Below, one piece after another: positions 5,070-22,747 of a stretch of DNA of 64,000 nt (its first letter is position 1; each line of letters begins with the position of its first letter). The position numbers and the translations under genes were made by a program. Under the pieces are notes generated by a model. It saw only the letters and a list, made by a program, of their open reading frames with translations, was not told where the DNA came from and did not search any database. The stretch comes from Phytoactinopolyspora limicola (lineage in GTDB: Bacteria; Actinomycetota; Actinomycetes; Jiangellales; Jiangellaceae), in assembly GCF_011320225.1 (NCBI RefSeq), contig NZ_JAAOEN010000001.1:353652-417651 (forward strand), written 5' to 3'.

Positions 5070-6047
5070 TCAGCTCCGATGCGCGACCACCCGGCTCAGC
5101 TCCATCTCACTGGCGTTGGCGCCAGTACACATCACCGCCACCCGGCGGCCGGCGAACCGCTGAGGAAATGCCAGCAGCGCAGCAACGGCCGCAGCTCCGG
5201 CGCCTTCGGCCAACGTGTGCGCATCACGCAGCAGCAGCCACTGAGCGTGTCTGATGGTGTCGTCGTCGACCAGCAGGAAGTCGGCCAGCTGGCTCCGCAT
5301 GATCTGCTGGGTGAGCTCGAATCCAGAGCCGGTGGCAAGACCTTCCGCGCTGGTCTGGTTGGGGCGGTTGACGATCTCACCGGATCTCCAGGAGTCGTGG
5401 GCGCCCGGTGATCCGGCCGCCTGCACGGCGACAATCTCACAACCAGGGGCGACGGCCGCTGCCACCAGGCATGCCGCGGCGGCGCCGCTGCCGCCACCCA
5501 CCGGCACGACGACGACGTCGAGATCTGGGTTTTGCTCGAAGACTTCCAGGTACGCGGTGCCAACGCCCGCGATCAGCTCCGGTTCATTAGCCGCGCTGAC
5601 CAGGCGGGCACCACGCTCGGCAGCGATCTTATCGGCGGCTTCCCAGGCACCCTCGAAGGTGGCACCAGCTTCCACGACTTCGGCCCCCAGCGCCCGGACG
5701 GCCGCCGCCTTGGCGGGGTTGGGGTTCTCCGGCATCACGATGAGGCAGGTGGCACCGGCCCAGGCCGCGGCGTAGGCCAGCGATTGTGCGTGGTTGCCGG
5801 TGGAGTACCCGACAATGCCGCGGGCACGCTCGTCGGGCCCCATCCCGGCCAGCAGGGTCAGCCCTCCGCGGACTTTGAACGCCCCGGTGGGCTGCACGTT
5901 CTCGTGTTTGACGAATACTTCCGCGGCGGTCACCGTCGCGGATAGGGCGGCATACGACCACATAGGTGTTGGAGGTAGCAGTCCATTGAGCACCCGCCGG
6001 GCCCGGAACACGTCACTGATGGTGGGTACGTACATGCCCTCTACCAT
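5070..6047 (-). CDS. Threonine/serine dehydratase-like PLP enzyme
   Basis: A 325-aa fold-type II pyridoxal-phosphate enzyme. The PLP lysine lies in TGAFKVRGG (about K58), followed by the asparagine-containing block STGNHAQSLA and the phosphate-binding loop PVGGGSGAAA. It has no ACT regulatory domain, so it is a short catabolic-type enzyme that would eliminate water from a beta-hydroxy amino acid (for example threonine, serine or a hydroxyaspartate) to give a 2-oxo acid and ammonia. The ATG at 6047 has GGAAG 6 nt upstream; a second in-frame ATG is four codons inside. It is convergent with the oxidoreductase gene and is transcribed from the side of the GntR regulator gene, with 39 bases between the two. 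Confidence 0.85.
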   Translation of the reverse strand: MVEGMYVPTISDVFRARRVLNGLLPPTPMWSYAALSATVTAAEVFVKHENVQPTGAFKVRGGLTLLAGMGPDERARGIVGYSTGNHAQSLAYAAAWAGATCLIVMPENPNPAKAAAVRALGAEVVEAGATFEGAWEAADKIAAERGARLVSAANEPELIAGVGTAYLEVFEQNPDLDVVVVPVGGGSGAAAACLVAAAVAPGCEIVAVQAAGSPGAHDSWRSGEIVNRPNQTSAEGLATGSGFELTQQIMRSQLADFLLVDDDTIRHAQWLLLRDAHTLAEGAGAAAVAALLAFPQRFAGRRVAVMCTGANASEMELSRVVAHRS

Positions 6048-6086: not shown

Positions 6087-6800
6087 CTACTCCTCGCTGA
6101 AATAGTCCGGGAAACGCTCCTCGAGCGGCTTGAGGGCGTCGAGGGCGAGCTGAAGATGGTGCCGTAAGACCTGCTCCGCGGCCGGAAGGTCTTTGGCCAC
6201 GACGTGGTCGACGATGGCGCTGTGCTGGGCCCGCAACTCCTGCAGGTGGCCGGGATCGGGCATGGGCAGCATCCGGACCCGGTCCAGGTGTGCCTTGGCC
6301 GATGACACGATGGGCCAGATCTTCGGGTGCCCGCCGATCTCCAGCAACGTGCGATGCAGGTCTTCATCTGTGGTGAACCACTGCTGCAGGTCACCCTGCT
6401 GTTCGGCATCTTCCTGCTCGGCCAGGATGCGGCGCAACTTCCGCTCCCCCTCCGGCCCAATACGTTCCACGGCGTGCGGCAACGACGCCAGCTCCAGGGT
6501 TTCCCGGATGAAGCGAACTTCGATCACGTCCTGCACGCTGATGCGCGACACGAAAGTGCCGAATTGGGGAACCACCTCAACCAGCCCCTCATCGGCGAGC
6601 CGGATCAGCGCCTCCCGCACCGGTGTGCGGCTGACCGCATATTGTGCGGCCAGCTCGTTCTCCGAGAGTGCCTGACCGGGAAGCAACTCCAGCGAGACGA
6701 TAGCGCGTCTGATCAGCTGGTACACCTGCGCACGGGTGCTGGCTCCGCGTAATGCGCCGACCTGAGCTCGTCGCGAGGCTCCTAGAGCGCGTACCGCCAT
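6087..6800 (-). CDS. GntR family transcriptional regulator, FadR/FCD type
   Basis: A 237-aa regulator. The N-terminal winged helix-turn-helix spans about residues 28-90 and includes SENELAAQYAVSRTPVREAL and the wing VVPQFGTFVSRI. The rest (about 100-230) is an all-helical FCD ligand domain with histidines that usually hold a metal. Such proteins typically sense sugar acids or carboxylates. It is divergent from the mannonate-dehydratase-like gene and lies just upstream of the dehydratase gene on the same strand. A GTAT-N6-ATAC palindrome in the divergent gap is a candidate operator, so it probably controls this sugar locus. Confidence 0.9.
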   Translation of the reverse strand: MAVRALGASRRAQVGALRGASTRAQVYQLIRRAIVSLELLPGQALSENELAAQYAVSRTPVREALIRLADEGLVEVVPQFGTFVSRISVQDVIEVRFIRETLELASLPHAVERIGPEGERKLRRILAEQEDAEQQGDLQQWFTTDEDLHRTLLEIGGHPKIWPIVSSAKAHLDRVRMLPMPDPGHLQELRAQHSAIVDHVVAKDLPAAEQVLRHHLQLALDALKPLEERFPDYFSEE

Positions 6801-6835
6801 AGGTGGATCCTAACCGTTCATGCCGATGAATGCTT

Positions 6836-6849
6836 GTATGCTAGGATAC
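6836..6849. promoter_or_regulatory. Candidate GntR operator GTAT-N6-ATAC
   Basis: GTATGCTAGGATAC is a palindrome in the 135-bp gap between the divergent regulator and the mannonate-dehydratase-like gene. It is followed by CATG, giving ATACCAT. Related ATACCA or CTACCAT strings occur in the divergent gaps at 12116-12131 and 21897-21902. The position suits autoregulation by the FCD regulator. Inference only. Confidence 0.4.
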
Positions 6850-6935: not shown

Positions 6936-7961
6936 GTGAGCATCCGGTTGGCATTGGGCCATATCGAGCAGCTCGACGATGACGTGGTGACCTTCGGCCA
7001 GCAACTCGGGCTCACCAGCGTTCACCTGCACACACCTGGCGATCTCAGCGGCACGGACGGATTCTGGACCGCGGATGAACTGCTTGGGCTCCGGCACCGG
7101 TGTGAGGACGCGGGATTGGTGCTGGAGGCTATTGAGAACGTCCCCTACGCCCACTGGGACAAGGTGCTGCTCGGCCTGCCTGGCCGGGACGCACAGCTGG
7201 AGAATTACTGTCGCACCATCCGCAATATGGCCGCGGCCGGGATCACCACACTTGGCCACCACTTCCTTCCCGGATACGTGTGGCGCACAGATCTGCGTGC
7301 CTCGGGCCGCGGCGGCGCGCTCGTCACGGCCTATGACGAAAGCCGAGTGGCCGAAGGCAACGCCCTGACCGGTTACAAGCTGACTCCACCGGCACCGGTG
7401 GAACACCCGCTGACTGCCGAGCAGATGTGGGAGAACTATCACGTCTTCCTGACCACCGTCCTCCCAGTGGCCGAGGAGGTAGGAGTGCGACTCTCGCTGC
7501 ATCCGGACGATCCCCCCACCACACTCGCCCTGGGCGGCATCGCCCGTATCTTGTCCAGCCCTGAGGGGCTGGAGCGGGCGTACGAGCTCTCGGGCGGCAG
7601 CCCGGCCTGGGGTCTGACCCTCTGCCTTGGCTCGGTCTCGGAGATGGCCGGCGCCCAGAGCGTCGAGCGAGTCATCGACTTCTTCGGCCCCCGCAACCGG
7701 ATCAGCTACGTGCACTTCCGCGACGTGCAGGGCACCGTGCCCAAGTTCGAGGAATGTTTCCTCGGCGAAGGAAACCTCGACCCGGCGGCGGTCCTGCGTC
7801 GGCTGGCCGCCACCGGTTTCGACGGCTTCCTCATCGATGATCATGTTCCGGCGATGCTCGGTGACCCCGACACCTGGGCAGACACCTCGTCGGCGGCCTA
7901 CTGCAGCCGTGGCCGCGCCCACGCGATGGGTTATCTGCAGGGGCTGTTGGCCGCGCTCTGA
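6936..7961 (+). CDS. Mannonate dehydratase-like (UxuA family) TIM-barrel enzyme
   Basis: A 341-aa member of the D-mannonate dehydratase family, which converts D-mannonate to 2-keto-3-deoxygluconate. The diagnostic block RLSLHPDDPP is near residues 185-194. LTLCLGSVSEM, the metal-site segment ISYVHFRDVQG and DDHVPAMLGD follow in family order. The GTG start at 6936 has GGAGG about 6 nt upstream. Because the locus is built around glycan hydrolases rather than hexuronate genes, the physiological substrate may be another sugar acid. It is divergent from the GntR regulator and convergent with the CUT1 transporter operon. Confidence 0.82.
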   Translation: MSIRLALGHIEQLDDDVVTFGQQLGLTSVHLHTPGDLSGTDGFWTADELLGLRHRCEDAGLVLEAIENVPYAHWDKVLLGLPGRDAQLENYCRTIRNMAAAGITTLGHHFLPGYVWRTDLRASGRGGALVTAYDESRVAEGNALTGYKLTPPAPVEHPLTAEQMWENYHVFLTTVLPVAEEVGVRLSLHPDDPPTTLALGGIARILSSPEGLERAYELSGGSPAWGLTLCLGSVSEMAGAQSVERVIDFFGPRNRISYVHFRDVQGTVPKFEECFLGEGNLDPAAVLRRLAATGFDGFLIDDHVPAMLGDPDTWADTSSAAYCSRGRAHAMGYLQGLLAAL

Positions 7962-7972
7962 CCACCAGGTGC

Positions 7973-8830
7973 TCACGTGGTGTCGCGCAACTGCCCCAAC
8001 GACAGACCCTGACGGAACAGCCGCTGGGCGACCAGGAACAACACGATGGTCGGCAGGGACATAATCAGACCCCCCGCCAGCACCGCCGTGGGCGCCGCCC
8101 CGCTGTACATCCCTTGCAGCCCTACCAGCGCGGTCATCGCTGGCCGCACACCGCTGGACTGGGTGAGCGTCAGCCCCATGAGCAGGTCGTTCCACACTCC
8201 GACAAACTGCAAGATGAAGATCGCACCCAGGGCGGCCTTGGCCAGTGGCAGGTAGATCCGGAAGAAGATAGTTAATGCGTGGGCGCCGTCCATCGTGGCG
8301 GCCTCGAACATCTCGTACGCGACGCCGGTGAAGAAGTTCCGCATCACAAAGGTCGCGAACGGCACGTTGAGCGCCAGATGGATGAGGATCATCCCGGCCC
8401 TGGTATCGAACATCCCGGTCCACGCGTATCCGAGAAACAGCGGGGCCAACAGCATCTGCAACGGCACAATGGTCCCGGCGAAGATGACCATGAACCAGAC
8501 GAAGCCGTACTTCAGCCGGAGCGCGATGATGGCGAAACCCGCGGCGGCCCCCACCAGGATCGCCAGCGCTGGCGCCACGGTGGCATAAAGCAGCGTGCTT
8601 GCCGCGCCGGACGCCAGGTCCACCCGGCCCCAGGCGTCGGCGATGTTGTCGAACAGGCCGATCCGCAGGCTGGGGACCCACGCGTTCGCGGTGCTGTACT
8701 CGTCCAGCGGCTTGGCCGCATTGATGATCAGCAAGTAGGTGGGAATCAGCCAGAGCACGGACAGCACACCGAGTACGGTGTACTTGGCGATACTCCCGGG
8801 ACGCACCACAAGTCCAGCTGCTCTGGTCAT
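7973..8830 (-). CDS. Carbohydrate ABC transporter permease, MalG/UgpE type
   Basis: A 285-aa inner-membrane permease with six predicted helices. The EAA loop that contacts the ATPase is visible as EAATMDGAHALTIFFRIYLP near residue 180. The start at 8830 is chosen because its ATG overlaps the upstream permease stop (ATGA). A longer upstream frame exists but runs antiparallel to or inside that gene. It is the last gene of the three-gene CUT1 importer operon, which lacks its own ATPase; actinobacteria commonly energise these importers with a shared MsiK-type ATPase. Confidence 0.92.
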   Translation of the reverse strand: MTRAAGLVVRPGSIAKYTVLGVLSVLWLIPTYLLIINAAKPLDEYSTANAWVPSLRIGLFDNIADAWGRVDLASGAASTLLYATVAPALAILVGAAAGFAIIALRLKYGFVWFMVIFAGTIVPLQMLLAPLFLGYAWTGMFDTRAGMILIHLALNVPFATFVMRNFFTGVAYEMFEAATMDGAHALTIFFRIYLPLAKAALGAIFILQFVGVWNDLLMGLTLTQSSGVRPAMTALVGLQGMYSGAAPTAVLAGGLIMSLPTIVLFLVAQRLFRQGLSLGQLRDTT

Positions 8831-9741
8831 CGCACCTTCTCCGGCCGCTCGGACAGCTGCCGCCGCAGATAGGTCATCGCGGCGATGAAGGTCAACGCGG
8901 TGAGGAAGACCGCGATCGCGGCCCCCATGCCGAAACGCTGCATGGAGAACGTCTCCCGGTACATCGTCACCGCCAGCGTCTCCGAACGCCGACCCGGACC
9001 ACCTTCGGTCATGGTCCAGACGATGTCGAAGGTCTTGAGGCTGGCCACAATCGACAACCCGACGACGACGGTGGTCAAGGGCCGTAGTAGGGGCCAGGTG
9101 ATGTGCCGGAACAGCTGCCACGGCCCGGCCCCGTCCATCCGGGCCGCTTCCAGGGCCGACTTGGGAATCGACTGCAGCCCCACCACGAACAACAACGCGT
9201 TGACCCCGACGGCCTGCCAGGACGCCGCCGCGATCATCGTGAATGTGTTGATCGGCGCATCGATCATGAACCGGGTAGCCGCACCGGGAAGGCCGAGGAA
9301 GTCCAGCATCTGGTTGATGGCGCCGTGAGTCTGGAGCAGGAAACCGAAGACAACACCGATCCCAACCCCGGACAGTGCGTACGGCAGCAGGAACGGCAGC
9401 CGCAGCCAGGTGCCGAACCGGTGGTTGTAGGTCAGCACCGCGATCAGCAGACCCAGCGCAACCGGCACCAAGATGGTGCCGAGCACCCAGATGACGGTAT
9501 TGCGCAGGGAGATGGTGAAGTTCGGATCGTCGAACATGGCGGCGTAGTTGTCCAGCCCGACGAACTCCGGCGCGCCGAGGCCGCGATACTCGGTAAAACT
9601 CAGCAACGCCGCCCACAGAAACGGCAGGTAGAGCAGGACGGCCGCCACGATCACCGCGGGCGCGACAAACATCCGCGCCGTGGCCTGACTGGTGATGGTG
9701 GTCGGGCGGCCGCCACGCACTGAGGTAGCGGGTGCCCTCAT
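8827..9741 (-). CDS. Carbohydrate ABC transporter permease, MalF/UgpA type
   Basis: A 304-aa permease with a cytoplasmic N-terminus and six helices, starting at about residue 27 (VAPAVIVAAVLLYLPFLWAA). The EAA loop reads EAARMDGAGPWQLFRHITWP. Its start follows the stop of the solute-binding lipoprotein gene with no gap, and its own stop overlaps the next permease start. It should form a heterodimeric channel with its downstream partner and take sugars from the binding protein. Confidence 0.92.
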   Translation of the reverse strand: MRAPATSVRGGRPTTITSQATARMFVAPAVIVAAVLLYLPFLWAALLSFTEYRGLGAPEFVGLDNYAAMFDDPNFTISLRNTVIWVLGTILVPVALGLLIAVLTYNHRFGTWLRLPFLLPYALSGVGIGVVFGFLLQTHGAINQMLDFLGLPGAATRFMIDAPINTFTMIAAASWQAVGVNALLFVVGLQSIPKSALEAARMDGAGPWQLFRHITWPLLRPLTTVVVGLSIVASLKTFDIVWTMTEGGPGRRSETLAVTMYRETFSMQRFGMGAAIAVFLTALTFIAAMTYLRRQLSERPEKVR

Positions 9742-10977
9742 CTACTCGGACCAGTGCTGTTCGTGTACTCGCTGAATCTGTTCGAGGTAGTCCATCGGGT
9801 CGCCGAGATCGGCCATGAACGCGTCGAACTGCTCCATCGCTACGGTTGATACCTGCGGCGGCGACGCCTCGAAGTACCGATTGTGGATGCGGTGACCAGT
9901 AGCGATCTGGTCGGACACCTCAACCAGCCGTGGATCGGCGGCCTCGGCGTTCGGGTTGTAGGACATGCCGTTTCGCGCGACGGTGAACTCGGTCTGCGCT
10001 TCGGGCTGCATCCACCAGCGCAGCACCTCCTGTGCCGCGTCGGCGTTGCGAGCAGCTTCCGCCTGGCACAGTGGGCCGAGTTCCACGACGACGGAGGTCT
10101 CGGACAAATCCGGGTTGATGCTGGGCATCACGAAGACGTCGTAATCCTCGCCGGAGGTCAGCTCCAGTCCATTCAGCGGCCCGTGGAACCAGGTGCCGAA
10201 CGGCTGCATCGCCACCACTCCGTCCCGCATCATCTCCGCCGGGCCGATCTCCACACCGGGTTCGATGGTGTAGCCGCCGGCCGCCAGTTCCCGCCACAGC
10301 TCCATCACCTCGACCACCTCGGGGTCGGTGTAGTTGGCGGTGCCGTCGGCCAGCCCCTCGTAGACGTCGGGATACATGCCGAGCATCAGCTGCTGGAACC
10401 AGACGAACGAGAAGATCCCGCCGGGCAGGCTGAAGGGGATCTGGCCGTCGGCGAGCAGGGTATCGGCTATCCGCATCAGCTCGTCCCACGTCTGTGGTGG
10501 CTCGAAACCGTACTCGTCGAAGATGGGGACGCTGTAATACATAACCCAGTAGTCAGAGAGCAGAGGCACACAGTACGTCGCGCCGTCGATCTCGAAGAAC
10601 GATCTAATGTCGGCTGGCACGTCACCGTCGGCTATCGCAGCGTCCCAAAGGTGGCCGGATTCAGCGACCAGCCCCTCCTCGACCAACTCGGCCAACGGAC
10701 CGCCGGTGTGCCAGGTGAACAGGTCGGGCCGTTGGTCGGTGAGGAACGACGAGCGGATGAACGAGTCATAAGCCGCGTCGTCGGCGTATCCAACGACGTT
10801 GAGCTCGGTGCCCAGGGTTTCCTGGGACACGGCGGAGACCGCGGCGAACTCAGCCTCCCACTGCGCTTTGTCGTGGTAAAAACCGACGACACCGTCTGTC
10901 TCGCCACCGCCTCCGCAGGCAACCAGGAGCATTGCGGCTGCCACAAGCGGTGGGATGGTGCGGCGTGTTCGCTTCAT
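9742..10977 (-). CDS. Extracellular sugar-binding lipoprotein of the CUT1 importer
   Basis: A 411-aa family-1 solute-binding protein. The signal peptide ends in the lipobox LLVAC, with the lipidated Cys at residue 21 followed by a glycine run that acts as a flexible tether. The body is Trp- and Tyr-rich (for example PQTWDEL, PGGIFSFVWFQQL, WMQPEAQTEF), as is usual for oligosaccharide binders. It is first in the importer operon, 21 nt after an intracellular GH172 gene on the same strand, so the imported glycan is probably the substrate of that enzyme. Confidence 0.93.
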   Translation of the reverse strand: MKRTRRTIPPLVAAAMLLVACGGGGETDGVVGFYHDKAQWEAEFAAVSAVSQETLGTELNVVGYADDAAYDSFIRSSFLTDQRPDLFTWHTGGPLAELVEEGLVAESGHLWDAAIADGDVPADIRSFFEIDGATYCVPLLSDYWVMYYSVPIFDEYGFEPPQTWDELMRIADTLLADGQIPFSLPGGIFSFVWFQQLMLGMYPDVYEGLADGTANYTDPEVVEVMELWRELAAGGYTIEPGVEIGPAEMMRDGVVAMQPFGTWFHGPLNGLELTSGEDYDVFVMPSINPDLSETSVVVELGPLCQAEAARNADAAQEVLRWWMQPEAQTEFTVARNGMSYNPNAEAADPRLVEVSDQIATGHRIHNRYFEASPPQVSTVAMEQFDAFMADLGDPMDYLEQIQRVHEQHWSE

Positions 10978-10998
10978 GGGCGTGAACCACCTTCACCT

Positions 10999-12087
10999 TC
11001 AGATGACCTCTAGTTGGTCGGGATCCGGATAATCGGGAAACTGCGGCGCTGGCAAGGTCTGGTACCAGAACGCGACCGACGCGATGTCGTCGGTCAGCGG
11101 CAGGTACCGGCTCCCCCGGCGCCAGCCCAGCGCCTGGGTGGTGACCCGGAGGTCGGAAGAGAACCGCACTGGGTCGGTGACGTGCCACCGGTACAGACCG
11201 AATCGGCTTTGGGTCCGGTTGGGGTCGCTGCCGTCTGGCAGGAGAACGGTGGGCATCCCGGCGTAGGGCGTGGTGTAGGCCTGGTACCGGCCGTTGACAT
11301 GGAAGCACCACGCACCACCGAAGTAGTCCTCGGTCCCGGTTCCACAGATGGTGGGGTGCTCGGCATCACCGTCGAGATAGAACTTGACCTCCCCCTCACC
11401 CCACCAGCCGTCGTTGCGGACGCCCCACGCCATCGCGGTACCGACGTAGTGGCCCTGTCCGGTGACGCCGTCGAGGATGGTGTGTACCTCGCGGTACGGC
11501 AACGGGTTGCTCCGCCGGAACTGGGCGTGGAAGTAGCCGGCGTCGGCTGGGACCTCGGTCAGCTGGTAGTTGATCTGATAGAAGAAGATCGCGTCGTCAC
11601 TGGTGAGGTTCTCGACGGTGATCCGGCACCGGGCTTGGAACGGCATCTCCCAGTAGGCGTTGAATCCGTTGGCTGGATTGACGCACACCGCCAGCGACGA
11701 GATCTGCGCGAACGTTCCCCACCCGGAGGCGAAGAAGTCGCCCAACGGCACTTCTACCGACGGCCGATCCGACCCGTCCCAGTAGATCCGTAACGTAAGT
11801 AGACGGGTGGGGGCCGTTGTGGTCATCCAGATCTGCTGGATGGAACCGGGCCCGGCAATATCGGCTACCTCGAAGGTGGCTCCAGGGCTGATCGACACAC
11901 AGGGGCTGATCTTCCAGCCCGGTCCGAGGTCACGAGCGGCGTCGGCACCCATACCGGTGGTGGCGCGGGCCCCACCACCCTTTTCCCCCGTGGGATTCTC
12001 CGCCGAGATGGACCGTGAGCGCGCATCCGACAGCCGATAGAGGTTGCCGAGGTGAGTTCCGAGCCCGCTGCTGTGCCCATCTGTCAT
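10999..12087 (-). CDS. GH172 (DUF2961) glycoside hydrolase, intracellular
   Basis: A 362-aa protein of the DUF2961 family, now GH172, with no signal peptide. It covers the jelly-roll core from N-terminal NLYRLSDARS to the C-terminal FWYQTL region. The signature GTGTEDYFGGAW contains Glu at about residue 253. A second acidic pair in WWGEGEVKFYLDGD lies about 20 residues before it, matching the two catalytic glutamates reported for GH172. Known members are alpha-D-fructofuranosidases and exo-D-arabinofuranosidases. ATG 12087 is chosen over an upstream start because GGGAG precedes it at normal distance and the upstream residues are not conserved-looking. It leads the sugar importer operon and so may process imported furanosides. 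Confidence 0.88.
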   Translation of the reverse strand: MTDGHSSGLGTHLGNLYRLSDARSRSISAENPTGEKGGGARATTGMGADAARDLGPGWKISPCVSISPGATFEVADIAGPGSIQQIWMTTTAPTRLLTLRIYWDGSDRPSVEVPLGDFFASGWGTFAQISSLAVCVNPANGFNAYWEMPFQARCRITVENLTSDDAIFFYQINYQLTEVPADAGYFHAQFRRSNPLPYREVHTILDGVTGQGHYVGTAMAWGVRNDGWWGEGEVKFYLDGDAEHPTICGTGTEDYFGGAWCFHVNGRYQAYTTPYAGMPTVLLPDGSDPNRTQSRFGLYRWHVTDPVRFSSDLRVTTQALGWRRGSRYLPLTDDIASVAFWYQTLPAPQFPDYPDPDQLEVI

Positions 12088-12199
12088 GACCACTCCCGCT
12101 CGCGCTATTAGTGTTCTACCATACCAGTATGTAACAGCTCCCTCACATAGCCGCAACCCTCGGTTCACCTACCGACTCCGACCACAGGAGGCGCTCGAC
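12088..12199. promoter_or_regulatory. Divergent promoter region with CATACCAGTATG palindrome
   Basis: This 112-bp gap separates the leftward GH172-importer operon from the rightward secreted glycan-hydrolase genes. It contains the perfect 12-bp palindrome CATACCAGTATG at 12120-12131, preceded by TCTAC. The CAGGAGG ribosome-binding site of the rightward gene is at 12185-12191. The palindrome shares ATACCA with the site at 6836-6850 and is a plausible operator for the same regulator. Confidence 0.45.
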
Positions 12200-13360
12200 A
12201 TGGCTCACCCGGGACGACGACGGACCCGCGGCAGGCTGGCCAGCCTGGCCGCTCTCACCCTCACCGCATCCCTCATCACGGCCACGGCCTCGGGAAACAC
12301 CGCTTCGCCGGCAAAAGAGCTCAGCTGCGGGTTCGGCCCCCGCCCGCTGCCGGCCCAGCCGGCGCAGCCGGACGAGGAGTTCTGGGAACTGTTCGAGCAG
12401 TACGGTCCCGGCTGGACCGGCGCGGACAGTACCTACTCGGTGCTACTTCCGGACGGCCGCACCGCATGGCTGTTCTCCGACACCTTCCTGGGGGCGGTCA
12501 ATCCGGATCGGTCCCGCCCGGACGACGGCGTACATCTCGTCAACAACTCGATCGTCGTCCAGGACGGCGACGAACTGACCACTCTGGTCGGTGGCACCCT
12601 CGACGAACCCGAGTCGCTGTTCATCCCAACCGACGGGTCATCGTGGTACTGGGTGTACGACGGCGTGGTCGAGGACGACGAGTTGCAGATCTTCCTCATC
12701 AAGTTCACCCGGTTCGGCGACGGTATGTGGGACTGGGAATGGTCCGGAACGGACGTCGCGACGCTCTCGCTGCCCGACCTCGAGATTCAGGAGTTCGTGC
12801 CACTCGAGGTGGACAACGGCATCCAGTACGGCGCCTACGTGCTGCCGCACCGTGACTACACCTACATCTACGGCATCGAGGATCGTGGCGTGCCCAAACT
12901 CGGCCACGTTGCCCGGGCTCCCCGCGGCGAGGTACTCGCCCAGGACGAGTGGGAGTACTTCACCGGGAGCGGATGGTCGGCCGACCCCGCGGCGACCGCT
13001 CCGTTCCTGGGCGACTCGATCGCCAACGAGTACAGCGTCACCCCGATGCGCGGAGGGTACGTCCTCATCACGCTGGACACCTCGGTGCCGCTCGACGAGT
13101 GGCGCGACGTCGTCGCCTACTACTCGTGCAGCCCGGAAGGTCCGTGGACCAAACGCACCGTCATCTACGAGGCCCCCGAAGCCGACGACCCAGAACTGTG
13201 GCCGTACAACGCACACGCCCACCCGCAGTTCACCAAGAACGGCCAGTTGCTGATCTCTTACAACGTCAACACCACGGACTTCTTCTCGTTGTGGGACGAC
13301 GCCGACCGGTATCGGGCTCGGTTCATCCGGGCCGACCTACCCGGCGTCTGGCGACACTAG
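12200..13360 (+). CDS. Secreted five-bladed-propeller protein, DUF5005/DUF4185-like
   Basis: A 386-aa secreted protein. The N-terminal signal peptide (about residues 1-35) has an Arg-rich start and the hydrophobic core LASLAALTLTASLITATASG. The mature part begins with a propeller-type motif, GPGWTGADSTYSVLLPDGRT, followed by AWLFSDTFLG and later NAHAHPQF and LLISYNVN, typical of the DUF5005/DUF4185 group. DUF4185 includes the endo-D-arabinanases of GH183; DUF5005 is a related family without settled activity. ATG 12200 is chosen for the CAGGAGG 8 nt upstream. The next gene, a secreted GH172, starts 6 nt later, so the two probably act together outside the cell. Confidence 0.75.
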   Translation: MAHPGRRRTRGRLASLAALTLTASLITATASGNTASPAKELSCGFGPRPLPAQPAQPDEEFWELFEQYGPGWTGADSTYSVLLPDGRTAWLFSDTFLGAVNPDRSRPDDGVHLVNNSIVVQDGDELTTLVGGTLDEPESLFIPTDGSSWYWVYDGVVEDDELQIFLIKFTRFGDGMWDWEWSGTDVATLSLPDLEIQEFVPLEVDNGIQYGAYVLPHRDYTYIYGIEDRGVPKLGHVARAPRGEVLAQDEWEYFTGSGWSADPAATAPFLGDSIANEYSVTPMRGGYVLITLDTSVPLDEWRDVVAYYSCSPEGPWTKRTVIYEAPEADDPELWPYNAHAHPQFTKNGQLLISYNVNTTDFFSLWDDADRYRARFIRADLPGVWRH

Positions 13361-13366
13361 GCGCCG

Positions 13367-15895
13367 GTGATGGTGCGTAGAGGAACGGCGGCCACCGCAG
13401 TCGCCCTCGGGACGGTGCTCGTGGCGGCGCTCACGGCGGTACCAGGCACCAGCGTCACGAGTGCTCCGCCCGACGTGCCGGGTTCACCGACACCAGCGTC
13501 GAAGGGTCCGGTCGGGTGGGACGTCTACCGACAGCTCGACCGGCTCCCGGAACTGACCACCGGCGTCGACACCCGGCAGTTCTCGAGCTTCGACCGGACC
13601 GGCGGGAACGACGACGGCTTCTTCGGGACCTACTCCTGCCTGGACATCGATAACGAAGGCCGGTGTGTCATCGCCGACCACTCCGGGCCGGGCGAAGTGC
13701 AATCGATCTGGTCCACGCGCGGCTTCTTCGGCGACTCCGGCGACGTCAGCGAGACCGGGACCATCCGTGTCGAACTGGACGGGGAGGTGGTCCTGGACGC
13801 GCCGTTCCAGGACGTCGTCGACGGTGTCCTCGGGCCACCGTTCGTCCACCCACTGGTGGCCAACACCGACCAGACCTCCGGTGGAGTGTACGTGCGGGTG
13901 CCGATGCCGTACCGGACCTCAATGCGCATCAGCACCGAGCACAATTCCAGCTTCTACCACGTGAGTTACCGTGTGTTCGGGGACCCGGCGGGTGTCGAAA
14001 CGTTCGATCCGACCGACGAGGCCACCGACGTCCTCGACGTCCTACAGAACTGGGGCACCGCGGATCCCAAGCCGGACCGACGCCGGTCACGGTCGGCGGA
14101 ATCGGCCCCTACCACACTCGCACCGGGTGAGTCCGTTGTGCTCGCCGACCTGCGCGGCCCAGGAACGGTGGACGAACTGGAGCTGCGGCTACCCCACCTC
14201 ATCAGTCCGGAACTCGGACAACAGGTCACCGACGACGGCCGGGCGTTCCTCGACGGCAGCCGCTTCACCATGGCCATTGATCCCGCCAACGACGGCGTGC
14301 TGCTGACTCGGCGCCTGGACGCGAACGTCGGTGAACAGCGGGCAACGATCTCCGTCGACGGTGAACCGGTGGCCGAATGGGAGCCACTGCCATCGAGCGG
14401 CGGGGGCCAGTGGGCCGACCAGACCGTCGAACTGCCGGCAACCGCCACGGCCGGCAAGTCCGAGATCACCATCGAGAACACCTTCGTGTCGTCGAACGGC
14501 GACGTCAACGAGTTCAGCTACTGGGCAGACTCACTGGTGGGCGGTTCCCCGGTCCGCACCGACGAGCTGTCCGTGGGTATCCGCTCGCTCGCCGACGAAG
14601 CCGCACACGGCTACGAGATCGACGGGCAGTCGTGGCAAGGGGTGCGGACCTTCCGATATCCGGCGCCCGAGCAGGACCTCGAGCCGGTACTGGCCACCGA
14701 CGAGATCCTGGCCGATGTCCGGGTCCGGATCAGCTTCGACGGTCAGCAGACCGTCGACGCACCGCTGGGCGAGTTCTTTGGCACCGGCCTAGGGCTCTAT
14801 CCCGTTCGGTCGCTGTTCTTCGCCGTTGACCCTGTCGAGCGGACATTCACCTCGTGGTGGCCGATGCCGTTCCGCTCGCGCGCGGTGGTCGAGTTGGTCA
14901 ACGACTCCGAACACATCGTCGAAGATCTCGACGCCGCACTCCGGTGGCGGCTCGCGCCGGCCAACACCCGCGGGCTGGGCCCCCGGGGCGAGCTCGGACA
15001 TTTCCACGCCACGTCCCGGCACGGTGAGACGGTGCCGGGCGAGGACTGGGTGTTCCTCGACACCACCGGCCGCGGCACCTTCGTCGGCGCCACCCACACC
15101 ATGGAAGGGCTGGCCACCGAGGTTCCGCTGCGCAACTATCTCGAGGGTGACGAACGGGTCTACGTCGACGGCACCCGGACCCCACAGCTGCATGGGACCG
15201 GCACCGAGGACTTCTACCAGGGCGGCTGGTACTTCCTGCACGGCCCGGTCTCCCTGCCGTTCAACGGTGCGCCCGCCCACGAGCTACGCGACTTCGGCTG
15301 CGTCAACGAGTGCGACAGCGCATATCGCCTCATGATCGGCGACGCGGTCCCGTTCGGTTCGTCCTTGCGCTTCGGGATCGAGGTCGGCCCCGGCAACGAC
15401 GTCCCGGCCGTCTACAGCTCCACCGCGTTCTGGTACGGCCGCCCCGAACCGGCGCTGACCGTCACCGACGTGCTCGACGTGGGTGTTCCCGCCAGCGAGG
15501 ACGACCACGCCTACACCTCAGCCGATCCGGGTGAACCGGTGGAGTTGACCAGCGTCTTCGAGGGCGACGCCGACCACATCGAGGTCACTGACGTCGGGCG
15601 GGCTACCACGGCGCCGGTAGCGTTCCGGCTCGCGGTGTCACGCGACAACGACGGTGTCGTCCTGCGCCGACGGTCGGACCAAGAGCACGCGTACCAGGCC
15701 GCCCGGGTGTTCGTCGACGAGTCCTTCGTCGGCATCTGGCGGCAACCGCTCGGCAACGGAACTCAGCGGTGGCTGGAGGACCGGTTTATGGTGCCGGCCG
15801 ATTTCACCGCGGGCCAACACGAGATCGAGGTGCACCTGGAGCCGCTAGGCGACGCACCATCCTGGCACGCCGCACGTTACGAAGCACTGTCTTAG
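13367..15895 (+). CDS. Large secreted GH172 (DUF2961) glycoside hydrolase
   Basis: An 842-aa exported protein. The signal peptide covers about residues 1-33 (core [18 protein letters not shown]). An N-terminal DUF2961-like part (about 45-205, with [12 protein letters not shown] and [14 protein letters not shown]) is split from the catalytic part by an inserted beta-rich module (about 215-400). The second part carries [12 protein letters not shown] and [13 protein letters not shown]; the two candidate catalytic glutamates are exactly 21 residues apart, the second near residue 614. A C-terminal beta-sandwich follows (about 690-842). GTG 13367 and ATG 13370 are both possible starts and neither has a strong ribosome-binding site. 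It is twice the length of the intracellular GH172 and probably trims a polymer outside the cell. Confidence 0.86.
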
Positions 15896-15908
15896 GCACG
15901 GAGGGTAG

Positions 15909-18900
15909 ATGGACATCGATACCGCACTCGACCGCCTTCGCACGGCGGCCGATCAGATCCGCTCGGGCTGGACGCCACCACGATGGCACTGGCGCCGGCC
16001 GGACGGCACCGAGAGTGAGATCGCCGGCTTCGCCGATCTCGATCTCGCACCCGGCACCTGGCAGGAAGTGCGGGCGCCGATGAACCTTCCATCGCGGCTG
16101 CATGGGGTCGATCTGAGCGGCGACACCCTCCAGGTGCGCGCCGAGAGTATCTTCCCGATCCGAATCAGCCTCGACGGTGAGCAGCTGGTCAACGAGGGCC
16201 GCCCGGCGCTGGCCACCGGGCCGGTGCTCATTGATGCCGGAAAGGTGCACGCCGACGGCAACGGCACCCTCCAGGTCGAGATCCTGCGCCCGGCCAGCCA
16301 CGGTGCGGGTCCGGCGTGGGCCAACTGGTTCAGTGTCCACATCACAACGCCCCGGCTGCAGGAGCGGTTCGAACTGCTCGACGTGGCCTGGTCCCGTCTC
16401 CTGCTGGCCCGAGAGGTGGCCGCCGACGCCGCCGAACTGGCTCATTGCGAACGGGCCGCCGCGCTGGTGCCCGAGCAGCTAGCCGAGCTCGCCGACCACG
16501 AGCTTCACGCCGTGCTCTCCGGGCTAGCGGAGACGCTCGCACCGCTGGCGGCGGCTGCGTCCCGGGTGCCGGTGCACGTCGTCGGGCATTGTCACATCGA
16601 TCTGGCTTGGCTGTGGACGTGGGAAGAGACCAGGGAGGTGATCAAACGGGACCTGCGCAGCGTGGTCGGGATCATGCGGGACTATCCGGAAGCCACCTTC
16701 ACCCACAGCCAACCAGCCGGATACGAAGTAGTCCGCCACGACGAACCCGAGCTGTTCGCCGAGATCCAGCGGCTGGTCCAGGACGGCCGCTGGGAGCCGG
16801 CAACAATCCAATGGGTCGAGGGTGATACCCACCTCGCCGGTGGTGAAGCCATGGCCAGCCAGCTTCTGGAGGGAGTGGCCTACACCAAGGAACACCTGGG
16901 GGTATCGCCGCGCGTATTCCTCGCACCGGACACCTTCGGGCACAGCGCGAACCTTCCACAGCTCGCCGCATCCGCCGGCGCCCAGGTGTACTACCACCAT
17001 CGCGGCAATCCCGGCGGACGGCACGGTCGATGGCCCGCCTACTGGTGGGAGGGCATCGACGGTACCCGCCTGCTGTCCGTGTCGACGGTTACCTACAACG
17101 GCGAGTTCACCGCCCAGGGTGTCGCCGAGGCCGCGGTGGAGGCGATCCGGGCGGGGGTATCGGCGGCATTGTTGTTCGTTGGTGTCGGCGACCACGGCGG
17201 TGGCCCAACCCGCGAGGGACTCGACCGGCTGCGACGCATCGGACGGGCAGGCGGGCTCCCTCCGGCGTTCTGCTCAACCATCTCCGCCTACGCCGAAGCG
17301 GTCCGCACCGACCAGCTGCCCGTGCACCGCGGCGAATCACCGCCAATTTTCGAGGGCTGCTACACCACCCACGCCGATGCCAAACGGACCAACCGGGACG
17401 GTGAGAACCTCCTGACGACCGCGGAGACCGTGGCGGCGCTGGCTCGGCTGGATCGACCTTCTGGTCTGACCTCGGCCTGGCGCGACCTGTGCTTCCACCA
17501 ATTCCACGACATCCTCCCGGGCTCGGCGATCCACGAGGTCTACGAACACACCGCACGCGACCACGCCCGGCTGGCCGAGACCGCAGGTGCCGTCGTCGAG
17601 GACGCCTTGGCCGTCCTACACGCCGGACATCCGGCCGGGGCCATCGCCGTGACCAACCCGCTGGGACACGATCGCACCGACGTGGTGACGGTGGCCGGGC
17701 TCAACACCGGTGATGCCCGCGCGGTGACCGTCGTCGGCGCGGATGGCACCACCACCCCTGGTCAGGTCACCGGGGAAGGGGTCACGTTCGTCGCCCGAGT
17801 GCCGGCCTTCGGCACCACGTCGTACACGCTGAGTTCAGTGGATACCGCGGATTCCGGCGCTGCCGAATCAGCGGCCGGACCGCAGGTCCGACCGGAGGGT
17901 GGAGCAGCCGGATCGCCCCGTTACTGGCGGGTGGAGACCCCGCACTTCACCGCCGCGATCCGCGCCGACTCCGGGATCATCACATCGTTCGTCGACCGCC
18001 GGGCCGACCGGGAGCTGGTGGCTTTCGGTATGCAGCGCATGAGCGACTACATCGACGCGGCCCGGCCGGACCTCGGATTGAACGTGCTGCAGGTGGTGGA
18101 AGAGCGGCCACACGCGCTGTCGGCGTGGCAGTACGCCGAAGTGGGTGCCGAACACACGCTGGTGGACGGAGCGCGCACCGAACTGATTGAGGCTGGACCG
18201 GTGCGGGTTGTGCTCCGAGTACGGCACACCTTCCGCGCGTCGACCGTCGTCGAAGACATCACCTTCTACCGCGACTTGCCCCGGGTGGACCTCGCCCTCC
18301 AGGTCGACTGGCAGGAACCAGGTGGACCGGAGCACGGAGTGCCCAACCTCAAACTCGCGTTCGCACCCGATCTCGACGAGGTGGAAGCCTGGTATGAGGT
18401 CCCGCACGGCGCCGTGCGGCGCCGGTCCAACGGCCAGCAGGTGCCGGCGCAACGGTGGGCCGACTTGGATGATGAAGGCTACGGAGTGGCCGTACTCAAC
18501 GACGCCATATACGGTCACGACGCGCTCGGCGCCCGGCTGCGGCTCACCCTGCTGCGGACCGCCTACGAGCCCGACCCCCGCAGCGACCAGGGTGAGTATG
18601 TGTTCCGCTGCTCGCTGGTCCCCCACCTTGGCGACTGGCGCCAGGCCGGCATTCCGGCCGCGGCCGCCGGGTTCAACCAGCCCTTGCTGGTGCGGCTGGT
18701 GTCCCGTGCCGACGCCCCTGCTGGAGGTGGCTGGCGGCCCCGCGTCGAAACCACGGGTGTGGTGACGACGGCCCTGCGCGTGGCTAGAGACGGCAGCGGT
18801 ACGGTGATCCGACTCGTCGAAGCCGCCGGCCAGAGGACCCCGGTTCAGCTCCGTGGCTTGCCGGCTGGCGCATCGGTCTGGCGGGCGGACGTGACCGAAC

Positions 18901-19001
18901 ACCGGCGGGTGCTCGCTGGCACCGGGCCGGAGGTATCGCTGATGTTGCGGCCATGGCAAGTCGACACCATCGTCGTTGACCCACCCCGCTTGTGCACCTG
19001 A
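15909..19001 (+). CDS. Alpha-mannosidase, glycoside hydrolase family 38
   Basis: A 1030-aa cytoplasmic GH38 enzyme of normal length. The zinc-binding and substrate motif GHCHIDLAWLWTW is near residue 229, and the nucleophile aspartate lies in LAPDTFGHSANLPQ near residue 340. Another conserved segment is FHQFHDILPGSAIHEVYE near residue 530. The C-terminal half is the beta-rich GH38C region. ATG 15909 follows GGAGGG at 15901-15906, 13 nt after the GH172 stop, so it belongs to the same operon. It should remove alpha-mannose from imported oligosaccharides. The last codons and the TGA stop lie inside the terminal repeat of the 551-bp element, so the original C-terminus may have been replaced. Confidence 0.93.
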   Translation: MDIDTALDRLRTAADQIRSGWTPPRWHWRRPDGTESEIAGFADLDLAPGTWQEVRAPMNLPSRLHGVDLSGDTLQVRAESIFPIRISLDGEQLVNEGRPALATGPVLIDAGKVHADGNGTLQVEILRPASHGAGPAWANWFSVHITTPRLQERFELLDVAWSRLLLAREVAADAAELAHCERAAALVPEQLAELADHELHAVLSGLAETLAPLAAAASRVPVHVVGHCHIDLAWLWTWEETREVIKRDLRSVVGIMRDYPEATFTHSQPAGYEVVRHDEPELFAEIQRLVQDGRWEPATIQWVEGDTHLAGGEAMASQLLEGVAYTKEHLGVSPRVFLAPDTFGHSANLPQLAASAGAQVYYHHRGNPGGRHGRWPAYWWEGIDGTRLLSVSTVTYNGEFTAQGVAEAAVEAIRAGVSAALLFVGVGDHGGGPTREGLDRLRRIGRAGGLPPAFCSTISAYAEAVRTDQLPVHRGESPPIFEGCYTTHADAKRTNRDGENLLTTAETVAALARLDRPSGLTSAWRDLCFHQFHDILPGSAIHEVYEHTARDHARLAETAGAVVEDALAVLHAGHPAGAIAVTNPLGHDRTDVVTVAGLNTGDARAVTVVGADGTTTPGQVTGEGVTFVARVPAFGTTSYTLSSVDTADSGAAESAAGPQVRPEGGAAGSPRYWRVETPHFTAAIRADSGIITSFVDRRADRELVAFGMQRMSDYIDAARPDLGLNVLQVVEERPHALSAWQYAEVGAEHTLVDGARTELIEAGPVRVVLRVRHTFRASTVVEDITFYRDLPRVDLALQVDWQEPGGPEHGVPNLKLAFAPDLDEVEAWYEVPHGAVRRRSNGQQVPAQRWADLDDEGYGVAVLNDAIYGHDALGARLRLTLLRTAYEPDPRSDQGEYVFRCSLVPHLGDWRQAGIPAAAAGFNQPLLVRLVSRADAPAGGGWRPRVETTGVVTTALRVARDGSGTVIRLVEAAGQRTPVQLRGLPAGASVWRADVTEHRRVLAGTGPEVSLMLRPWQVDTIVVDPPRLCT

Positions 19002-19540
19002 TCTCCGTTTTGTCACCTGATCTTTCGCACCGGGGTGATCAGATGCGCGGCGGTGCCGACCGCCAGTATCGGATGTGGTGATACCGCATCTGATCTTTCC
19101 CCTGTGTGGACCTGCTGGCTCAGAATTGCGGATGGACGGCTCAGACGCCGCCTATCCGCAATTCTGAGCCAGCAGGTTCAAGGCGCGTAACCACGCACCG
19201 TGGGCGACGACCAACCCGTTCCCAAGAGGTCGTCCTGCACGGGACGCTGGCACACGATCAACCGTCGTTGTGCGCCAGCCTCGCACCAAGATGCACGCAC
19301 CCACGCCCCCCATCCGCGGTCACCACCGCGGCTCATAACACCGACGGGCACCGCGCCGGACGATCAGGTGCACAACACGCCCCGAATCGGCCATTCATGC
19401 ATCTGATCGCCAACCGTCCACATCCCGAGATGCGATCAGATGCACCAACCGTGCCGTCGTCCGCGGTCAACACGTCGCCACCCGCATCTGATCACCCCGG
19501 CGCAAAAGATCAGGTGACAAAACGGAGATCAGGTGCACAA
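18990..19540. mobile_element. 551-bp non-coding element with 58-bp terminal inverted repeats
   Basis: Bases 18990-19047 and 19483-19540 are inverted repeats matching at 56 of 58 positions. Between them lie 435 bp without a convincing gene. The core motif GATCAGATGC or its complement recurs at about 19037, 19087, 19397, 19434 and 19483. There is no transposase and no obvious target-site duplication. The element separates two convergent genes and supplies the stop codons of both. It looks like a MITE or another palindromic repeat. It fills the only gap of more than 300 bp in this region. Confidence 0.75.
19110..19177. repeat. Perfect 24-bp inverted repeat inside the 551-bp element
   Basis: Bases 19110-19133 and 19154-19177 are perfect reverse complements around a 20-nt loop. 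The arm begins ACCTGCTGGCTCAG. As RNA this would be a very stable hairpin able to act as a terminator in either direction between the alpha-mannosidase and enolase-like genes. Confidence 0.85.
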
Positions 19541-20781
19541 CTGGCTTCGATCTCCAGCAGCCGGTTCCACTTCGCCGTCCGCTCCGAACGGGTGGTGGAG
19601 CCGACCTTGATCTGGTCGGCCCGCCACCCCACGGCGAGGTCGGCCAGCCAGTGATCCTCGGTGTCGCCGGACCGTGCCGACACAACCACCTGGTATCCGA
19701 GCCGGCGCGCGGTGGCGACGGTTTCCGCGGCCCGGCTGAGGATGCCCCGCTGATTCGGCTTGATCAGCACGGACGTACCTACCCCGCGCCGCGCCGCCTC
19801 GGCCACGCGGTCGGCGGCGGTAGAGAACAGGTCGTCGCCGACGAGCTGCGTGCCGCGCAGCCGCCGGGTGGCCTCCGCCCATCCGTCCCAGTCTTGGTCG
19901 TGGAGTGGGTCTTCGATACTGACCACTGGATACTTGGCGACCCAGCCGGCCAACTCGTCGATCAAGCCGGCCGCGTCCAGACGGCGGCTCTCGGCGGCCA
20001 GCCGATACGACGAGCCATCCCACAACTGGTTCGCGGCGACGTCGACAGCTAGCGCCGCATCGTGCCCAGGTTCCAATCCCGCGGCCTCGATCGCCTCGGT
20101 CACCAGGCCGAGGGCCGCGGCATTGGAAGGCAACTGAAGTCCCAAACCACCCTCGTCGGCGACGAGCGTAGTCACCAGACCACGCCGCTCCGCCAGAGCT
20201 GCCGCCTGCCGACGAACCCGCCAGGCCCATTCGATGGCGGTACGGAACGAACCTGCCCTCAAAGGCATCACCAGGACGTCCTGGATGTCGACGGCGCCGC
20301 CCGCGTGTGCCCCGCCCGAGACGACGTTGACCATCGGGGTGGGCAGGCGGTGCGGCAGACCGCCAGCGAGCAGCTCGTACAACGGGACGCCGGCTGCCCG
20401 CGCGCGGGCCCGGTGTGCGGCCACCGACACTCCCAAGGCGGCGTGCACCCCCAGCTCCGCCAGATCGGTGCTCGGGTCCCAGGATTCCAGCACGGCGTCC
20501 ACCTCCCTAGCCGGTACACCGGCCAGGGCGGGCCCGATCTCCTCGATCACAACACGGACCGCACCCGCCACGCCCAGCCCATCCCAGCTCTGGCCACCGT
20601 CACGACGCTCCCGAGCGTCGTGGCTGCCGGTCGATGCGCCGGACGGAACGATCGCCCGGCCAGCGGCTCCTCCGGCGAGGACGACGGAGCAACCCAAGGT
20701 CGGCGTGCCCCGAGAGTCGAGCGCCTCCCACGCCCGGACGGTCGCGACCGCATCGTCGGCGCCTATCGATGTCTCACTCAT
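19510..20781 (-). CDS. Atypical enolase-family protein
   Basis: A 423-aa enolase paralogue. Clear family blocks are VPSGASTGSHDA, VSGGAHAGGAVDIQD, ADEGG, DVAAN, VSIEDPLHDQDWDGW, GDDLFST, LIKPNQRG and IKVGSTTRSERTAKWN. Several catalytic positions differ from glycolytic enolase. The normal SHRSGETED is SARSGDTED, so the active-site histidine is alanine. The normal DIQE is DIQD. It is therefore probably not the housekeeping enolase. ATG 20781 overlaps the stop of the kinase gene (ATGA). The last ten residues (SCAPDLRFVT) are encoded by the terminal repeat of the neighbouring 551-bp element and replace the usual C-terminus. Confidence 0.85.
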   Translation of the reverse strand: MSETSIGADDAVATVRAWEALDSRGTPTLGCSVVLAGGAAGRAIVPSGASTGSHDARERRDGGQSWDGLGVAGAVRVVIEEIGPALAGVPAREVDAVLESWDPSTDLAELGVHAALGVSVAAHRARARAAGVPLYELLAGGLPHRLPTPMVNVVSGGAHAGGAVDIQDVLVMPLRAGSFRTAIEWAWRVRRQAAALAERRGLVTTLVADEGGLGLQLPSNAAALGLVTEAIEAAGLEPGHDAALAVDVAANQLWDGSSYRLAAESRRLDAAGLIDELAGWVAKYPVVSIEDPLHDQDWDGWAEATRRLRGTQLVGDDLFSTAADRVAEAARRGVGTSVLIKPNQRGILSRAAETVATARRLGYQVVVSARSGDTEDHWLADLAVGWRADQIKVGSTTRSERTAKWNRLLEIEASCAPDLRFVT

Positions 20782-21845
20782 CGTTCGTCCACCACCTCGT
20801 CCCACGTCTCGTCGAGATCAGTCACGCCGCCGACCAGCCGGCGGCCGAGCTGGCGCACCCATTCGACCGCCGGAGGGTCCAGATAGTCGACGCACGACGT
20901 GCCGTCGACCCGCGCCAGCAGGAGGCAGCCGACGTTCCGGGCCAGCTCGACGGCGGGTCCGGCCGCCCGCTCAGCCACCGGCTCGGCGGCCGCTGCCCCC
21001 GTGGCCGCGGACGCGGCCGACGCCAGCCCGGCGGCTCGGCGGTGCGCATCGGTAAAAACACCGGCGCTCACCCGCAGCGGATGCGCCATGCGCCGCATCG
21101 CCACGGCCTTCAACAGCAGGTGTGTCTGGAGGAACGCGACGTCGAAGACCGGATGGCCGTGATGAGCCACCTCGAAGTCGATCACCCACAGTCCGGACGC
21201 CCCGACCAGCACGTTCTTCGGGGAAAAGTCACCGTGGACCAAGCCATGCCGAGCGGACCGTAGAGTGGTCGCCACATCTGCGATCGTCTCGGCCAGGTCG
21301 GGATGCCGTTGCGCGACCACCGCGTGGAATGGCCGCAACCGCAGCGCCTCCATGCGGTCCATACCATCGAGCCGGCGCAACACGCCGACGGTGTCGGCGG
21401 CGCTGCCGGCGCCGGCCGGCGCAATGGAGGAGGCGCGCCGCCAGGTGCCCAACACCGTGCCGAGGGTCTCGGCGACGACCGGGTGGACGGTGCCGGCCAG
21501 GAGGTCCGTCTTCCAGTCCCGCCAATCGGCGGGCGCGGCGGCGATCGCCATCGTGGCGGTGTCCGGGTCGGTGGCCAGCACAGGCGGGACGTACTCCGGC
21601 GTGATGCCCGCGACCAGCCGCAATACCTCGGCCTCAGCGAGCGCCCGATCGGCCGAGGCATGCCATTCCACCGGGGTCCGGAGCCGAGCGAGCGCCCGTT
21701 TGACGACGATTCTGGTGGAGCCGTCGTCCACGACGACCGTGTCATTGGAGACACCCCCGCCGAGCGGGGCGGCCCTCACTTGCGGCCCGGAAACGAGGCC
21801 GAAGGTCCGAACGAAGTCGATGGCCTGCGCCGGCGTGAGCGTCAC
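20778..21845 (-). CDS. Aminoglycoside-phosphotransferase-fold kinase (APH family)
   Basis: A 355-aa protein with the APH/choline-kinase fold. N-terminal strands carry LGGGVSNDTVVVDDG and the ATP-binding lysine in IVVKRAL. The catalytic loop is VHGDFSPKNVLVG, and the metal-binding motif is VIDFEVAHHGHPVFD. Such kinases phosphorylate small hydroxylated molecules such as sugars, choline or antibiotics. Its stop overlaps the start of the enolase-like gene, so the two proteins are made together. The kinase may provide the phosphorylated substrate of the enolase-like enzyme. This pairing, not drug resistance, is the best guide to its role. Confidence 0.87.
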   Translation of the reverse strand: MTLTPAQAIDFVRTFGLVSGPQVRAAPLGGGVSNDTVVVDDGSTRIVVKRALARLRTPVEWHASADRALAEAEVLRLVAGITPEYVPPVLATDPDTATMAIAAAPADWRDWKTDLLAGTVHPVVAETLGTVLGTWRRASSIAPAGAGSAADTVGVLRRLDGMDRMEALRLRPFHAVVAQRHPDLAETIADVATTLRSARHGLVHGDFSPKNVLVGASGLWVIDFEVAHHGHPVFDVAFLQTHLLLKAVAMRRMAHPLRVSAGVFTDAHRRAAGLASAASAATGAAAAEPVAERAAGPAVELARNVGCLLLARVDGTSCVDYLDPPAVEWVRQLGRRLVGGVTDLDETWDEVVDER

Positions 21846-21937
21846 CCGAGCACCTCCCCAGCCTGGGTCGACGTCGCGAAATCGGGTACTAGCACGCTAC
21901 CATGTAAGCACGAAGCGCTGAGAGGGTGATGCGACTC

Positions 21938-22735: not shown

Positions 22736-22747
22736 CTCCGGCGCGGC

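Follow-up and report, generated by a model that had tools for sequence, protein, structure and literature searches.

Within a 64,000-nucleotide stretch of the Phytoactinopolyspora limicola genome (contig NZ_JAAOEN010000001.1, positions 353,652 to 417,651; hereafter, the window), positions 7973 to 19001 carry two GH172 enzymes, a secreted DUF5005/DUF4185-like propeller, a GH38 alpha-mannosidase, and a CUT1-type importer. We propose that they form a separate oligosaccharide-salvage locus regulated by a GntR protein, the substrates of which would combine an alpha-D-arabinofuranose-type residue with alpha-mannose (probability roughly 0.45). The proposal builds on direct observations, namely the genes, the operon layout, the conservation of an operator, the fold of the propeller and its catalytic residues, the placement of GH172-1 in the ExoMA1 clade, and a distinct D-arabinan locus elsewhere in the genome. 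A first-pass annotation of this DNA had read the same gene set as a scavenging locus; all the named genes are open frames with strong family matches, and the gene set supports import and hydrolysis.

The genes are organized in two divergent, tightly packed operons, with gaps between genes of at most 21 bases, which share a 112-base intergenic region (12088-12199). The minus-strand operon, from 12087 to 7973, includes GH172-1 (10999-12087), the solute-binding lipoprotein (9742-10977), and the MalF-type (8827-9741) and MalG-type (7973-8830) permeases. The plus-strand operon, from 12200 to 19001, includes the propeller (12200-13360), GH172-2 (13367-15895), and GH38 (15909-19001). The most likely starts are the ATG at 12087 (rather than 12168) for GH172-1, position 8830 for MalG, and the ATG at 12200, preceded by AGGAGG, for the propeller. 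Next to the operons lie a GntR-FCD regulator gene (6087-6800, minus strand; PF00392 and PF07729) and, divergent from it, a gene for a UxuA-like sugar-acid dehydratase (6936-7961, plus strand; PF03786, 186 bits). The grouping is more than chance, because the gaps are so short and an operator-like site between the operons is common to another genus.

This site lies in the divergent region, which holds CTACCATACCAGTAT, with 15 bases identical to a site upstream of the gntR orthologue in genome G008. Its palindrome, CCATACCAGTATGT (12119-12132, plus strand), has a 12-base core, CCATACYAGTAT, that occurs a single time in the 6.59 Mb genome, exactly between the two operons. A second and weaker site, CTAGCATACAAGCAT (6830-6844, minus strand; three mismatches relative to CTACCATACCAGTAT), lies between gntR and uxuA, and operator-like matches in the window are 2 versus 0.20 expected. 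The G008 regulator is 73% identical over residues 1-234 (the next best match being 33%), and its gene stands directly before the GH172-1 orthologue; related palindromic sites were found upstream of that orthologue and of a second GH172 gene of G008. Across 34 kb of G008, the palindrome had 1, 4, and 9 strand-wise matches at up to one, two, and three mismatches, where a palindrome counts on both strands and the sites are fewer than the matches; ten shuffles of the same stretch gave none at one or two mismatches and a mean of 0.8 at three. Since the palindrome recurs beside orthologous GntR and GH172-1 genes in another genus, the GntR protein is probably the regulator of both operons. Inclusion of the CUT2 importer and GFO/IDH operon (175-5006) in the regulon is only possible, as the DNA upstream of the GFO/IDH gene showed no site resembling the operator.

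The first-pass annotation had regarded the propeller as a relative of the GH183 (DUF4185) endo-D-arabinanases, to be assigned by hidden Markov model. Both candidate profiles exceeded their cut-offs, each with a partial match only (DUF4185, PF13810, 42.4 bits versus 39.5; DUF5005, 35 versus 29.6). The PF13810 alignment spans only positions 156-289 of 309, and the true GH183 paralogues score 295-398. A profile of 12 propeller homologues retrieved from the PDB the DUF5005 protein BACOVA_04882 (4hbs, E=5.7e-19), EndoMA1 (E=1.5e-10), and nothing else, while hhalign against true GH183 proteins returned a probability of 97%. The AlphaFold2 model (mean predicted local distance difference test, pLDDT, 79) has the five-bladed EndoMA1-type fold: the best match was again 4hbs (Z 31.6), followed by EndoMA1 (8ic1, Z 28.3; root mean square deviation 3.2 over 296 residues), and the next structure was at 19.8.

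The residues D76, D94, and E277 of the propeller (mature frame, from 12200) align with EndoMA1 Asp33, Asp51, and Glu243, whose catalytic roles are described in PMC10509167; they are invariant in the 12 homologues, and the D76-D94 spacing of 18 is the same as in EndoMA1. The stretch matching EndoMA1 Arg198, which holds the sugar at subsites -3/-2, has R, Q, H, L, or V among the homologues, in a region where the alignment is loose. As the fold and the catalytic triad are kept and Arg198 seems to have no conserved counterpart, the propeller plausibly works like a GH183 enzyme, possibly on a different glycan. The structural kinship proposed earlier thus held, but the protein appears to be a distant GH183 relative and not a clear family member. 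Its nearest match, BACOVA_04882, is 22-23% identical and lends no substrate, and the literature on DUF5005 gave one passing mention only.

Several related genomes carry the propeller gene by itself, surrounded by unrelated genes. In genome G021 it belongs to a unit made of GntR, propeller, solute-binding protein (46% identical to that of the window), MalF (64%), and MalG (60%), after which come an enzyme of the mandelate racemase family and a possible MGH1-like glycosidase of 698 residues, whose Pfam match stays below the cut-off. A search of the G021 genome at E<=1e-10 gave no GH172. P. limicola itself has a second DUF5005/DUF4185-like propeller (L012:7836-8960) without an importer of its own, and the 16.5 kb around the related propeller gene of contig C37 contains no GH172 or CUT1 homologue.

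GH172-1 is a GH172 (DUF2961) enzyme (PF11175, 314 bits, over the cut-off), 56% identical to ExoMA1 (PDB 8ic8), a biochemically proven exo-alpha-D-arabinofuranosidase (PMC10509167). Both catalytic Glu are kept, in WGEG and GTGTED (258 and 280 in the 389-residue frame). In a quick maximum likelihood tree of 108 rows, computed without bootstrap, GH172-1 fell within the ExoMA1 clade (89 rows; Shimodaira-Hasegawa-like approximate likelihood ratio test, SH-aLRT, 97), and the fructofuranosidase alphaFFase1 of Bifidobacterium dentium, whose clade had been proposed as the place to look for a refutation, fell outside. The gate position, for which an Asn tied to arabinose specificity has been described (PMC10509167), is Asn253 in ExoMA1, Gly299 in alphaFFase1, and Cys288 in GH172-1. 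The Asn is present in 67 of 98 rows. It is kept by the ExoMA1 orthologues of bacteria of the same family, several of which adjoin GH183 genes (L108, L109, and L111). The subclade of GH172-1, formed by the Verrucomicrobium, window, Microlunatus, and G008 sequences, has Cys or Gly, the two closest relatives having Gly like alphaFFase1. DgGH172c, a proven D-arabinofuranosidase, also has the gate Cys, so arabinofuranose stays the likeliest ring for GH172-1, without certainty; moreover, a Cys of BACUNI_00161 has been judged to clash with fructofuranose.

We also surveyed the surroundings of 80 GH172-1 relatives in public genomes, up to 10 kb on each side. GH183 was found near 4 of the 80, GH38 near two, GH116 near one, and a UxuA match near none. 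The Pfam domains of the direct neighbours were diverse, with AraC-type regulators the commonest and DUF4185 in 2/136. With GH183 near so few relatives and neighbours so diverse, the clade usually lies outside D-arabinan polymer loci. In Microlunatus, a protein matching Ceramidase_alk (L015:8655-9953) precedes the GH172-1 relative, behind an oligopeptide-type importer.

As the first-pass annotation had stated, one GH172 is cytosolic (GH172-1) and the other secreted: GH172-2 has a visible signal peptide, as has the propeller. Its full DUF2961 unit (PF11175, 222 bits, residues 449-690) is accompanied by a partial copy (91-213) and by two beta-rich accessory stretches, one of which (287-432) occurs alone in another protein. 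Homologues 55-58% identical are present in six related genomes; seven, aligned or matched at full length, share the partial and full units and the accessory stretches, and the predicted catalytic pair E593 and E614 is invariant in them. The AlphaFold2 model of GH172-2 (pLDDT 59) was left out of the fold search. Most homologues stand last in a conserved gene run that includes GH116, a CobW-type protein, and a CUT2 importer (L143, L144, and L149-L151), a candidate for a second arabinofuranoside route in which monosaccharides would be released outside the cell. One homologue adjoins a GH67 alpha-glucuronidase in G008, where positions 38-112 kb of contig C33 (L145-L148) gather GH67, GH172-2, two propeller relatives, two further GH172, UxuA, and GntR in about 55 kb.

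GH38 has all four domains of its family (PF01074, PF09261, PF07748, and PF17677) and the HIDLAW and PDTFGHS motifs, without a visible signal peptide. It is similar to the Ams1-type alpha-mannosidases (E=1.6e-68; PDB 6lz1) in domains and core motifs but divergent, the best full-length relatives being about 28-38% identical and found in small-genome Actinomycetota. The numerous GH38 genes found in the order (a comparison of 22 genomes, one family) were rejected as orthologues, since the best identity was 38%. Full-length relatives adjoin an importer of the same type in genome G040 and a UxuA-like gene in genome G068, and therefore importer, UxuA, and GH38 recur together in distant lineages.

The CUT1 importer (7973-10977) consists of two BPD_transp_1 permeases (PF00528) and an SBP_bac_8 lipoprotein (PF13416). 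Its operon has no ATPase gene, which was not sought elsewhere. The solute-binding protein is rare: among 396 Actinomycetota genomes, four had a match at E<=1e-60. A MalF paralogue, 67% identical, was found in the same genome at C1:617 kb, within a region (C1:607501-627000; L199) where a paralogous importer (47, 67, and 56% identity) is followed by a short-chain dehydrogenase/reductase (SDR), a dehydratase of the mandelate racemase family, and a protein of about 700 residues that resembles a glycosidase. The UxuA-like protein scores below the NCBIfam cut-off for true UxuA; homologues of it lie near GH172-1 and GntR in G008, besides the one next to GH38 in G068.

From these data we infer the substrate, the endo and exo modes of the enzymes, and a mannonate route. 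Both operons would be read from one operator region under GntR control. Outside the cell, the propeller (putatively endo-acting) and GH172-2 (putatively exo-acting) would trim a glycan or glycoside, and the lipoprotein-fed importer, with an ATPase encoded elsewhere, would take up the pieces. In the cytosol, GH172-1 would remove the alpha-D-arabinofuranose-type residue and GH38 the alpha-mannose. Mannose could then be turned into mannonate and 2-keto-3-deoxygluconate via the adjacent UxuA-like dehydratase, perhaps with the GFO/IDH oxidoreductase, and the arabinose part could be handled in trans by a D-arabinose isomerase encoded on contig C34 and an FGGY kinase on contig C2. Arabinomannan fragments, from mycobacterial envelopes, are the best-known source of both arabinofuranose and mannose; arabinomannan fits as a substrate, unproven, and lipoarabinomannan is a possible one, mainly through GH38.

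In favor of this salvage locus, the predicted catalytic residues of all three furanosidase-type enzymes are kept, GntR, UxuA, and GH172-1 occur together again in G008, and so do propeller and importer in G021. Several points weigh against it. The pieces recur as separate modules (propeller with importer; GntR with GH172-1 and UxuA; GH38 with importer or UxuA), so a common substrate is not implied. The GH172-2 relatives accompany GH116 and a CUT2 importer, or GH67, instead of the window set. The mannonate route is drawn from distant family matches. To our knowledge, no member of the GH172-1 subclade or of the DUF5005 proteins has been assayed, nor has this GH38. A second locus in which propeller, GH172-2, and GH38 adjoin one another was not found; the comparison covered the 80 relatives of GH172-1, the 22 genomes available for the order, and the gene neighbourhoods examined.

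The reading put forward by the first-pass annotation, a dedicated locus for D-arabinan or lipoarabinomannan degradation, is unlikely, although it agrees with part of the evidence. Here the propeller would be a GH183-type endo-D-arabinanase, the GH172 pair would finish the arabinan, and GH38 would remove the mannose caps. The ExoMA1 clade of GH172-1, the EndoMA1-like fold and catalytic residues of the propeller, and the true GH183 genes of the organism speak for it. So does GH172-2, whose layout recalls that of DgGH172b of Dysgonomonas gadei PUL42 (about 1.5 DUF2961 domains; PMC10115798), active on arabinogalactan. That system (DgGH172a-c, DgGH4185a-b) likewise has several GH172 types in one locus; it differs from the window in its true DUF4185 enzymes, its fucose-isomerase-type gene, its importer type, and its regulation.

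The closest described counterpart is the D-arabinan locus of Microbacterium arabinogalactanolyticum, another actinobacterium (EndoMA1/2, ExoMA1, and ExoMA2; PMC10509167). It shares with the window a same-clade GH172 without signal peptide, a CUT1-type importer with SBP_bac_8, and a secreted five-bladed propeller. The window differs from it in having no clear GH183 enzyme, in the gate Cys in place of Asn, and in the additional secreted GH172-2, cytosolic GH38, and GntR operator; moreover, no GH116, D-arabinose isomerase, or kinase was found among the annotated genes of window positions 1-24000.

A closer match to the Microbacterium locus lies elsewhere in the P. limicola genome (6.59 Mb, 40 contigs, 99% complete), which has three DUF2961 and six DUF4185-type matches. 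At C34:545000-572670 (L010 and L011), an orthologue of EndoMA1, including its carbohydrate-binding domain (E=4.6e-173 to 8hhv), is grouped with two further DUF4185 proteins, a GH172, and a CUT1 importer, as well as a LacI-type regulator and a FucI-like isomerase. Contig C2 likewise carries a GH183, together with a CUT1 importer, a LacI-type regulator, and an FGGY kinase; the isomerase, LacI, and solute-binding protein names on both contigs rest on sequence look or distant matches. The C34 GH172 resembles BACUNI_00161, DgGH172c, and alphaFFase1 more closely than ExoMA1, and the sole GH116 match of the genome is on contig C23. Given the EndoMA1-type locus on C34, the window would be a second, different locus, and not the D-arabinan locus of this genome. 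The lost gate Asn, the variable Arg198 position, and the occurrence of propeller and importer without GH172 in G021 also argue against a dedicated D-arabinan locus.

No match to PF04602 was found in the genome, the one Emb arabinosyltransferase family searched. The organism therefore more probably consumes arabinan than makes it, a point in favor of the D-arabinan reading as well as of the salvage locus. Remodelling of its own cell-wall arabinan was rejected for the same reason, a verdict that rests on that one family.

A mannoside and uronate salvage locus acting on a fungal, plant, or bacterial glycan appears improbable. Importer, GH38, UxuA, and regulator would be its core, with the GH172 enzymes and the propeller trimming side groups. 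This would agree with the recurrence of the importer family with GH38, or with the possible MGH1-like glycosidase and a mandelate racemase-family dehydratase, with UxuA in two related loci, and with GH67 beside the GH172-2 relative of G008. However, two catalytically intact GH172, one with its own operator conserved in two genera, go beyond side equipment.

Less credence still is due to a locus for alpha-D-fructofuranosides or other furanosides, in which the non-Asn gate would let GH172-1 accept a ring with an anomeric substituent: alphaFFase1, with its Gly gate, is also a cytosolic GH172-fold enzyme beside an ABC importer (PMC8605356), but it is 34% identical to GH172-1 and in another clade, the Cys gate is shared with DgGH172c, and no GH32 or GH91 gene is present in the locus. 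A difructose anhydride pathway was rejected on this last ground, considering the annotated window genes, and xanthan, which the literature mentions as a GH38 substrate route, was set aside because no PL8 or GH88 was found among the annotated genes, a genome-wide search not having been made.

If the mixed arabinofuranose-mannose salvage locus is real, actinobacteria without arabinan of their own carry more than one route for arabinofuranose glycans, with the C34 locus serving the polymer and the window serving small mixed fragments. The DUF5005 propellers would then have a catalytic mechanism open to testing, and the regulon can be tested straight away through the conserved operator. New enzymes cutting glycans that contain mannose and arabinofuranose would help to work out how mycobacterial lipoarabinomannan is built. 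A bolder version, which we consider rather doubtful, treats the secreted DUF5005 propellers as a sister group to GH183 that applies the same Asp/Asp/Glu machinery to a different furanosyl glycan. Combined with the gate-altered GH172 subclade, GH38, and a GntR operator of their own, they would make up a salvage pathway, not described before, for a glycan that mixes furanose and mannose.

Beyond the regulator gene, the locus is flanked by a PLP (pyridoxal phosphate)-dependent dehydratase-like gene (5070-6047, minus strand) and by the GFO/IDH oxidoreductase gene (3753-5006, plus strand), the last of the CUT2-type importer operon. On the other side, positions 19510-23584 carry enolase-like, phosphotransferase-like, SDR, and cobalamin-synthesis genes, named by sequence look only and seemingly unrelated to the locus. 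Finally, among the other loci examined, L142:1242-2343 contains repeats that read RIIPACAGST/DHPRVRGEH in translation, probably a CRISPR (clustered regularly interspaced short palindromic repeats) array.

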